The position numbers and the translations under genes are program-made. Positions 27,672 through 31,101 of a stretch of 64,000 bases of DNA are shown piece by piece (the stretch's first letter is position 1; every line of letters begins with the position of its first letter). The notes under the pieces were generated by a model. That model was not told the origin of the DNA and did not search any database. It worked only from the letters and a program-made list of their open reading frames with translations. Origin of the DNA: Gammaproteobacteria bacterium (GTDB lineage Bacteria; Pseudomonadota; Gammaproteobacteria; SZUA-229); NCBI GenBank assembly GCA_026195255.1, contig JAPHSS010000026.1, positions 79,403 to 143,402 on the forward strand, read 5' to 3'.

Positions 27672-28412
27672 ATGATCTTGATAATTGATTCAGAAAAAAA
27701 GTCGGAAGCAAAAACCAGGCAGATATTTGATGAAGCTGGTTTCGGGGAAGTAATTATTGTAAAAACAGCTGCACAGGCACGCGAAAATTTAAATATAGAG
27801 AGTTATCAATTTAGTTTAATTATTATAAATGGCGAATTAGATGATAGTAATGGTTTTGAGTTATGCCGGGAAATAAAAAAAACTAACGCAGGTAAATATG
27901 CGTATATTATGATGATTGTCAGTAGTAGTGAAAATAAAACGGCAATTGAGAAAGCTAAACACAGTGGTGCAACCGGGTTCGGGGTAAAACCTTATTATTC
28001 AGCTGAGTTTCAAAGACAATTTATCAGGTACACCGTTTCAAAAGTAGTATTAATAGTAGAAGACGACCCGGTGATTCGTAAAATTGTTAAGGGTGTTATG
28101 AATGAATATCATCTTGAGACTATTGAGGTTGATGATGGTATACGAGCACATAATTTACTCAATAAAATGCTTCCACCTCGACTTGTATTAATGGATATAG
28201 GGCTACCGAATAAAAACGGGATACAGTTAGTCGAATTAATTCGGAGCAAGCCAGTCTGGCGTAAGACGCCTGTTGTAATGTTAACAGGAAGTTCTGATGT
28301 CACGAACGTTAAAAAATGTCTGGCGGCAGGGGCAAATGACTATTTAACTAAACCTGTTAACCTGGATATTTTTCGAAAACGTTTGAGTAAATACTTGTCT
28401 GATGAAAGTTAA
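27672..28412 (+). CDS. Tandem receiver-domain protein, first domain degenerate
   Basis: The 246-residue protein consists of two receiver domains with no output domain. Domain 1 (about residues 1-122) has IIDSEKK at the acidic pocket and Asn53 where the phospho-acceptor Asp should be (IIINGELDDSNGFEL), but keeps the Lys (GVKPY). Domain 2 (about residues 124-245) is canonical: VEDDPVIRK, Asp175 in LMDIGLP, MLTGSSD and LTKPVN. It overlaps the next gene by 11 bases. It may receive phosphate in domain 2 and act on the adjacent adenylate cyclase homologue; that link is inferred from the overlap. Confidence 0.88.
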   Translation: MILIIDSEKKSEAKTRQIFDEAGFGEVIIVKTAAQARENLNIESYQFSLIIINGELDDSNGFELCREIKKTNAGKYAYIMMIVSSSENKTAIEKAKHSGATGFGVKPYYSAEFQRQFIRYTVSKVVLIVEDDPVIRKIVKGVMNEYHLETIEVDDGIRAHNLLNKMLPPRLVLMDIGLPNKNGIQLVELIRSKPVWRKTPVVMLTGSSDVTNVKKCLAAGANDYLTKPVNLDIFRKRLSKYLSDES

Positions 28413-31101
28413 AAACGATATGCAGGTAGTTGATGCGAGACAGGCATACTATCGTTGTAATTCATTGCATTATGACAATTTAGCTGATGTTGTCGGAGAT
28501 GATGTTTATAAATATATTCAGCTTATTCCACTTTTCTTACAAATCAATAATAAATTATTGCCTGGTAATTCAGATGATGATGTGCCGGTGGGTATATATT
28601 CTTATAAGCCAGATAATAAGATAATAAATAATGCTAAGAAATTAAATAGCAAGTTTAGATATCAGCAAGAAGGTGTAGTTAAAAATTATGCCATTGATGC
28701 TATATATTTTAAACAGACGCTTATTGATAATTCTCATAGTTGTTGGATATTGTATCGAACATCATTAAATGAAAAACAAATTTCAGCGCTCAAAAATAAA
28801 ATTAATAAAATATCTGATTGGCTTTTATTAAGGGGTGCAAATATTGATTTTATTGTTTCGTCAGTTGATGAGTTTAAGGCTAATAATAATCATCAGTTAA
28901 CAGAAAATAATATCTCAATGTTTCTTGATGAATTTTATAGTGAAGTTATTTTGTTGGCGGGAAAGTATCCTGTTTGGTGGTTGGTTCCTCCACATAAAGA
29001 GAATGACTATGCTGGTTTTGTAGAACATATAAAACAGGCGAGATTTGTTGATATTGAAGAGTTTGTGGATTTAGGGAGTGTGGCAGATTATAAGTTGGAA
29101 GACTTAATCAGTTCAGCCGTTGCTCAAGCTCAAAAATCTAAAAAAAGTCCTGAATTATGTTTAATAAATTTATTGATTATAGATGAAAAAAACATGGCAT
29201 GGCCGGAGTTTGACGGGATATCAATACGTATAAAAAGCATGCTGTATAAAGGGGGTGAGGGTATAACAGCAGTTAAAGTGTATGCGAATTTTCTAAAAGA
29301 TGCTTTCAATAGGTATTCTGAGAAAAGTCATATACTTTCTCCCATCAGGTTGTTTTCCAGGATGAGAAATATATCAGAAAATGTGAATCACAGTGTCATT
29401 GATGCATATTTAAAAGATGATTATGTGCATGAGTCTTCAGTTAAGGGGCTTGATAGTATTGTTTCATACTTGAATTTTTTCAAAGCCATTTCATTTGAGA
29501 TTCGCCAGGTATTTACAAATATAGTTAATAACTATAATGCGGTTTATAAAAATTCAGAAGGCGATAAAAATATTAAGTCATTGGCACGAAATACGTTAGT
29601 GTTTTTATCAGATGATGAAGATAAGATTGCACTATATAATAATAAAAATGAAATTAATATTGTACTTGACCGGATACACCTGAAACAGAATATATTAAAT
29701 GGGATAAGTGTCTGGAGTCTGGTTTTAGAGGTTAGCGAGGGTGATGAAAAAACAGTAGACGGCTTTAGTAGTTTACTAGGAATTCTCGCATGGTGCTGGT
29801 TAAATCGAATTGTCAATAATTCTACACAGGTATCGGTTGAGTGCCCGAACCTGGAAGTTAAACAGATAGAAGCATTTTTTGTATTAGAGACATTAATACA
29901 CTATTTAAAACCCGATTTAATATCAAATATACCGCCGTTAGCTTTTGAAAATCCGCTCAAACCTATCGAGTCATTGTTGTTTATTAACTTTATGGCACCT
30001 ACTCCAAACACGACTGTTAATGTTGCAGATAACGATGATGCATTAAGATTTTCTAATCAGGCCAGCAGTCTGATAACACACTGTGAACAATTGATCGTTA
30101 ATAGTTGGGGGGATGTATATACACGGCAATATTCAGGCAATACGGGTTTATTGCGGTGTTTATGTGAATGGACGCAGCATGCACCAATTGATAGCATGAC
30201 AAAGCCACAATTGCTTAAGGTGTTTGGGCATGGTATTGGTGACAGTACCTATATGGCGCAACGCGTTGAGCAGATATATGAAGAAATGCTTTTGTTTTTC
30301 TATCATCAAAATCATGAAAATGGACGATTTATATTGAGAATGGGAATAGATTATCATGTTATTAAAGTCATTGACTCACTCTTAATCCCGGAGAAAATTG
30401 GCAAACAAAAAAGTTTAATGAAATATCTTGAGCTGGCATCGACTGAATTCCAGATAACAGCCTTAGAGCGACTGGCTTATACCGACCATCCACTTCGTGA
30501 AATATATCATAATAATAAACGTGATGTTTTTCAGATTTTTTTCCAGATCATTAATCGTAAGTTTAATACCTGGGTGTTAGATGAAAAAGGAACTTTATGG
30601 TCTGATTTGATAGATTTAACCGACCGTGAAAGTTATATAACCCACTGGCTATATCTTTTTAGAAATATTAGAAACAGATTACAAAAAATTAACTATCAGG
30701 ACAAAGAGTTTCCAGCCCTGGAAATAAATCAAATTAGTAATAATCTATTAGGTGGAGTAGAGTTTTATCCCCTTGGGGCAGACTCAATAACAGGTGATAA
30801 AAATTTCATAGATATTAAAGTACATATATTCGGGCATCAAGAAGGTGATCAATTGAGCATTATATGTGATGGGCGAAAATTCAGTTATAGTGAATTAAAA
30901 CAGGATGTTTTAGCTGATTGTGTTCAATATATGTCATCGAGAATGTTAACTGATGGGCATCTTCCTGTTTATGTTACGGATATTGATGTTCCGTTAAGAA
31001 TATATAATGTAAATGATAGAGATGAAATTCAAATTAGTCACATACTAAAATTCAAACGAAATTTTGAACATAGAATTAACAAGTTATTAGAAAGTTTGTG
31101 A
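28402..31101 (+). CDS. Class I adenylate cyclase homologue lacking the catalytic motif
   Basis: The 899-residue protein aligns along its length with CyaA: IQLIPLFLQINNKLLPGN and VPVGIYSYKPDN match the CyaA N-terminus, FLDEFYSEVILLAGKYPVWWLVPP and SPELCLINLLIID match the next blocks, and NSWGDVYTRQYSG with QRVEQIYEEMLLFF match the C-terminal part. In CyaA the segment between (MGST...[10 protein letters not shown]) is the nucleotidyltransferase active site; here residues 98-120 read DAIYFKQTLIDNSHSCWILY, without the Gly-Ser motif and with both metal-binding Asp replaced. Cyclase activity is therefore unlikely. The start may be the ATG at 28420 instead. It is translationally coupled to the double receiver gene, suggesting a regulatory pseudoenzyme. 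Confidence 0.82.
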   Translation: MKVKNDMQVVDARQAYYRCNSLHYDNLADVVGDDVYKYIQLIPLFLQINNKLLPGNSDDDVPVGIYSYKPDNKIINNAKKLNSKFRYQQEGVVKNYAIDAIYFKQTLIDNSHSCWILYRTSLNEKQISALKNKINKISDWLLLRGANIDFIVSSVDEFKANNNHQLTENNISMFLDEFYSEVILLAGKYPVWWLVPPHKENDYAGFVEHIKQARFVDIEEFVDLGSVADYKLEDLISSAVAQAQKSKKSPELCLINLLIIDEKNMAWPEFDGISIRIKSMLYKGGEGITAVKVYANFLKDAFNRYSEKSHILSPIRLFSRMRNISENVNHSVIDAYLKDDYVHESSVKGLDSIVSYLNFFKAISFEIRQVFTNIVNNYNAVYKNSEGDKNIKSLARNTLVFLSDDEDKIALYNNKNEINIVLDRIHLKQNILNGISVWSLVLEVSEGDEKTVDGFSSLLGILAWCWLNRIVNNSTQVSVECPNLEVKQIEAFFVLETLIHYLKPDLISNIPPLAFENPLKPIESLLFINFMAPTPNTTVNVADNDDALRFSNQASSLITHCEQLIVNSWGDVYTRQYSGNTGLLRCLCEWTQHAPIDSMTKPQLLKVFGHGIGDSTYMAQRVEQIYEEMLLFFYHQNHENGRFILRMGIDYHVIKVIDSLLIPEKIGKQKSLMKYLELASTEFQITALERLAYTDHPLREIYHNNKRDVFQIFFQIINRKFNTWVLDEKGTLWSDLIDLTDRESYITHWLYLFRNIRNRLQKINYQDKEFPALEINQISNNLLGGVEFYPLGADSITGDKNFIDIKVHIFGHQEGDQLSIICDGRKFSYSELKQDVLADCVQYMSSRMLTDGHLPVYVTDIDVPLRIYNVNDRDEIQISHILKFKRNFEHRINKLLESL

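Follow-up and report, generated by a model that had tools for sequence, protein, structure and literature searches.

The gene at positions 28402..31101 (+) of the window, the 64,000-nucleotide stretch of DNA analysed here, encodes an 899-aa, full-length homologue of class I adenylate cyclase without the catalytic residues. This protein, hereafter pCyaA, is very probably a class I adenylate cyclase pseudoenzyme. In the sequences read, the nucleotidyltransferase active site is removed in the whole lineage, which has retained the residues that define the fold as well as the C-terminal half. The explanation that we favour as a whole, with reasonable though limited confidence, is that pCyaA is a pseudoenzyme maintained by selection, probably acting as a protein-interaction regulator coupled to a transporter and a response regulator (RR). 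In textbooks, the cAMP used for carbon control comes from class I cyclases, and family-level matches would lead to genes such as this one being annotated as class I adenylate cyclases and to a CyaA pathway being assigned to the organism.

Architecture and catalytic site of pCyaA

The N-terminal nucleotidyltransferase-fold domain (28435..28980, +; aa 12-193) matches the Pfam family Adenyl_cycl_N (PF12633; E 1.1e-25, 91.2 bits), and the kept C-terminal class I cyclase region (29743..30606, +; aa 448-735) matches Adenylate_cycl (PF01295; E 2.4e-19, 69.8 bits). Both scores exceed the curated cut-off of 27, which places pCyaA in the class I cyclases at the family level. The NCBIfam class I adenylate cyclase models match the protein along its full length, far below their equivalog cut-offs; NF006984, which matches aa 435-897, gives at best 373.8 bits against a cut-off of 1300. 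With these matches, the statement of the initial annotation that the protein follows CyaA from end to end is upheld. The aligned identity to CyaA of E. coli K-12 (NP_418250.1, the product of cyaA of NC_000913) is 19%. CyaA of E. coli K-12 (NCBIfam PRK09450 series) and pCyaA have in common the two-part architecture, the scaffold residues and the nucleotidyltransferase fold of the N-domain. In contrast to CyaA, pCyaA exhibits neither the GS...SDxD block nor the SGSxQ loop, and several charged invariants are missing.

The dismantled catalytic block (28693..28755, +; aa 98-118) reads YFKQT------LIDNSHSCWILYR when aligned with E. coli K-12 CyaA. Six columns are deleted between two beta strands, and the Gly, the Ser and both Asp are gone. 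The block had been described as about five residues shorter; the shortening stands, whereas its size is to be corrected to six columns. His and Cys had also been placed at the metal-binding Asp positions, which is off by one column: when the alignment is anchored on the invariant Trp, these columns hold Ser111 and Ser113. The Trp of DIW itself is retained (W115). The SGSxQ loop, which precedes the LL[DE]EFYR segment, is also lost in the alignments.

We read the catalytic block in every homologue where it was present, using 369 gammaproteobacterial genomes (109 with a match), a scan of named genomes and the relatives of pCyaA. Outside f1, the family of the source genome of pCyaA, the GS...SDxDxW motif is intact in approximately 110 homologue rows. 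The exceptions in this survey are every readable f1 member and one genome each from two other bacterial families compared, f89 (G141) and f3 (G212). In pCyaA and all readable f1 members, GS and SDxD are absent and the Trp alone is kept. The column audit (L068 numbering) gives the same picture: G111, S112, S122, D123, and D125 are present in 100% of the canonical proteins and absent from f1, and the Trp of the block is also 100% conserved among canonical homologues. Further losses in f1 concern G184 and Q187 of the SGSxQ loop, R197, W258, K269, E278, D309, W368, and W370. In contrast, W127, K145, F195-Y196, G204, W209-W210, D240, G242, P267, K295, W472, W502, N506, and the D-E-x-G motif at 771-774 are retained, and structural Pro, Gly, Trp, and Tyr residues are generally kept. 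The other conserved blocks had been reported as preserved, which the audit bears out; the scaffold motif LLAGKYPVWWLVPP (28951..28992, +) is found exactly at aa 184-197 and is largely invariant in pseudo- and canonical homologues. Charged active-site residues that are lost together with scaffold residues that are kept would be the pattern expected of a folded pseudoenzyme. A sequencing or assembly artefact was rejected as practically inconceivable, as the identical six-residue gap occurs in eleven N-domains from ten separate assemblies.

The AlphaFold2 model of pCyaA (13-row alignment) has a mean pLDDT of 84 and a pTM of 0.75, and that of a canonical homologue has a pLDDT of 82. The topology of the N-domain is common to both models. 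The strands flanking the catalytic loop span residues 98-105 and 112-118 in pCyaA, versus 104-110 and 124-130 in the canonical model, and the 13-residue catalytic loop of the latter is reduced to a 6-residue turn. When the dead N-domain (aa 19-379) was compared with AadA nucleotidyltransferases using a second structural aligner, the best Z was 10.6 (220 residues, rmsd 4.2), which clearly exceeds unrelated rows and indicates a nucleotidyltransferase fold in the model; the canonical N-domain model reached a Z of 12.5 against AAD(9)/AadA with the same aligner. With Foldseek alone, the pCyaA model had no significant match, and a sequence search with pCyaA, including its C-terminal half, found no solved structure. 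The aminoglycoside nucleotidyltransferases AadA/AAD(9) resemble pCyaA in the N-domain fold, at 8% identity, but they exhibit no cyclase-type C-terminal half; their catalytic site is intact. The C-terminal halves of the dead and canonical models show a weak, repeated resemblance to the actin-like ATPase fold (YeaZ, PPX, CoaX, MreB), which alone is not significant.

The predicted retention of the fold is also what one would expect if pCyaA had become a nucleotidyltransferase with a new active site that carries out another reaction on a nucleotide, and the substrate does differ among many nucleotidyltransferase families. Nevertheless, this is improbable, given that the lost GS and acidic pair have no conserved replacement and that the SGSxQ loop has disappeared as well. 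Among the invariants of nine pseudo proteins, no conserved stand-in for the catalytic residues was found elsewhere in the N-domain, where the sole invariant acidic residues are D176, E220, and E251, far apart in sequence.

Occurrence, gene order and selection in family f1

Searching with an N-domain model, we found pCyaA orthologues in 10 of 54 f1 genomes, belonging to 5 of the 14 genera; all of the readable N-domains are dead, and the 54 genomes yielded no canonical CyaA. A single-protein scan of the genome contigs detected no relative, whereas the alignment-based scan did; a search of plasmid sequences gave no near match to pCyaA. Of the four other genomes of the same genus, three contain an orthologue, with 56-64% identity, and the orthologues from other genera exhibit 36-44% identity. 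All nine full-length homologues, including those with as little as 36% identity, have an open frame of approximately 900 codons.

The order of genes at the f1 locus is prfC, a small gene, an MFS transporter gene, the gene of a two-REC RR where present, pCyaA, the gene at 31284, valS and pepA; in E. coli, in contrast, cyaA lies beside cyaY/hemC. The MFS transporter (26414..27646, +) is Atg22-like according to Pfam and is encoded by the first gene of the conserved operon. The RR (27672..28412, +) comprises two REC domains and no output domain, and its gene overlaps the start of pCyaA by 11 bases in the source genome and in two genomes of the same genus (G004 and G001). The second REC keeps its phospho-acceptor Asp. 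The first REC has an Asn at the expected position of this residue (LIIINGEL), which is an Asp in the other five orthologues read.

In every f1 genome with pCyaA, the MFS gene adjoins either pCyaA or the RR gene beside it. The RR gene is found beside pCyaA in six of the ten genomes and is missing there in G003, G006, G018, and G008, which indicates that the RR is not the sole partner. A one-base overlap between the MFS gene and pCyaA is seen in two of the latter (G006 and G018). In genus g12, the homologues of the genes at 25264 and 31284 lie 18 to 21 bases apart; as the flanking genes are joined directly, the MFS-RR-pCyaA block has been gained or lost as a unit. On the valS tree, which is unrooted, the genera without pCyaA cluster together (support 0.98), which is compatible with one loss or one gain of the block. 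A cAMP-independent regulator or a partner of another cyclase had been suggested as possible roles; as partners, the conserved neighbours favour the MFS transporter, and the RR in six of the ten genomes, over another cyclase.

Within the genus, codon comparison (NG86) gives a pN of 0.17-0.26 versus a pS of 0.67-0.73 for pCyaA, corresponding to a dN/dS of 0.09-0.19, a rough ratio as dS is saturated. Changes at third codon positions are 1.5 to 2.2 times as frequent as those at first positions and 2.5 to 3.2 times as frequent as those at second positions. The identity of pCyaA in the same genus (56-64%) is to be compared with approximately 90% for valS, and pCyaA also evolves faster than its MFS neighbour, so the constraint is moderate. 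This fast evolution would also fit a relic in slow decay, in which catalysis was lost, the gene is unneeded and it persists by chance. The lack of a detected copy in 9 of the 14 f1 genera and the existence of some f3 copies that are shortened or interrupted by stop codons could be read in the same way. However, frames of approximately 900 codons would hardly stay open in nine full-length homologues of such a relic, with dN far below dS, nor would the operon order be fixed across genera, and we judge slow decay to be quite unlikely, slightly more so than a new enzymatic activity. The selected pseudoenzyme put forward by the initial annotation fares better: the motif is lost clade-wide, dN lies below dS, frames are open and synteny is conserved. 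That pCyaA combines catalytic loss with selection and is not a decaying copy is, at the level of sequence comparison, well supported.

Inactive class I homologues outside family f1

In family f3, a class I homologue of approximately 880 aa is present in 48 of 57 genomes (L204-L249), and all 29 readable N-domains are devoid of GS, SDxD and the SGSxQ loop, as in pCyaA. Unlike pCyaA, these proteins, with blocks such as LLNPAGQIRYPDPASFDLWLV and GVYLLNPAGQIRYPDPASFDLWLVHH, are inactivated by substitution, without the six-residue deletion, and their genes are flanked by purH and argC and lack an MFS or RR neighbour. The copies in G414, G433, and G441 are shortened or contain stop codons. As most f3 genomes carry a homologue that is dead where read, retention after catalytic loss is not a one-off event. 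This extension to a second whole family makes the dead protein more than a single oddity. Among the copies read, families f1 and f3 hold dead versions only, which means that inferring a CyaA pathway from family-level matches would be wrong in those families.

The class I homologue of G141, in f89 (L183:1903-4602), has kept GS and lost SDxD (LGSTGELIRPRDASFRLLVV). On its contig, which also carries argH, the gene follows a PAS-GGDEF-like gene and is two genes away from lysA, close to the usual context of cyaA in Gammaproteobacteria.

Trees built from the C-terminal part, without the catalytic block, separate the dead sequences of f1, f3, and f89 from the canonical set with a support of 83-93, which is not decisive; long branches are present. 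In a larger set, the long-branched canonical row L074 falls among the dead sequences. One ancient inactivation common to all dead sequences is possible on the basis of these trees. A broader proposal is that the dead class I cyclases form a lineage of their own, of ancient origin, that provides signalling scaffolds in at least three families of Gammaproteobacteria; once cAMP synthesis had passed to class III enzymes, the regulatory half of CyaA would have persisted in order to receive two-component or transport signals. We regard this proposal as speculative.

On contig 14 of the source genome, a second and more divergent class I paralogue was observed (L050:7113-9716; 867 aa, L021), in which the catalytic motif is also absent. 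Another paralogue of this second type, in G013 (L049:1-2250), is cut before the catalytic block. No MFS or RR gene adjoins either of these two paralogues.

cAMP context and proposed role of pCyaA

The source genome encodes a CRP above the NCBIfam cut-off and four class III cyclase domains in which both metal-binding Asp motifs (FxD and GD) are intact. Because of these proteins, cAMP signalling is probably alive and would not depend on pCyaA, as far as gene content can tell. CRP is above the cut-off in nine of the ten f1 genomes with pCyaA and in 9 of the 14 complete f1 genomes without it. A specific link of pCyaA to cAMP and CRP is not borne out by this co-occurrence, as CRP is common in genomes without pCyaA too.

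These data bear on the idea that pCyaA binds and tunes the resident class III cyclases or CRP. The near-constant presence of CRP alongside pCyaA and the four class III cyclases with intact motifs speak for such partners, but no cyclase or crp gene is linked to pCyaA in any locus read, and CRP is also found in most of the complete f1 genomes without pCyaA. This idea is therefore unlikely, although less so than decay or a new reaction.

For the selected pseudoenzyme, the following mechanism can be proposed. pCyaA would make no cAMP. The class III cyclases would produce the cAMP for the resident CRP, such that the catalytic job of CyaA has been taken over and its regulatory shell retained. pCyaA would then act by protein contact, with its C-terminal region sensing or binding a partner, which may be the phosphorylated REC protein, the transporter or both, and the dead N-domain may serve as a scaffold or binding surface. 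pCyaA could thus provide the output of the REC protein by interacting with it, regulate the MFS transporter from the cytosol, or do both. This RR/MFS-coupled role is the more tentative part of our explanation, and we consider it possible without leaning towards it. E. coli CyaA is regulated via its C-terminal half by a PTS transport protein, which provides a precedent for a C-terminal half listening to the transport state.

The signal input of the regulatory C-terminal half of CyaA is poorly understood, and a natural version of this half, freed from catalysis and linked to an RR and a transporter, would allow its binding partners to be identified cleanly. Other pseudoenzymes, such as pseudokinases and inactive class III cyclase-like domains, have kept the fold, lost catalytic residues and likely play a regulatory role; their fold class differs from that of pCyaA. 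A literature search, with subscription papers mostly outside its scope, found no class I adenylate cyclase pseudoenzyme.

Several other features were observed in the window. An apparent two-partner secretion pair is located at 16123-23471, comprising a filamentous-haemagglutinin-like protein of 1779 aa followed by a POTRA/TpsB-like transporter. At 55101-62049, a hybrid sensor kinase of 1784 aa, apparently with three periplasmic binding-protein domains, is followed by a second kinase with REC domains; a phosphonate-binding-like protein is encoded after these kinases, at 62331. Finally, a small exported-looking protein with tandem DMAGDMTRDM repeats is encoded at 8236-8682.
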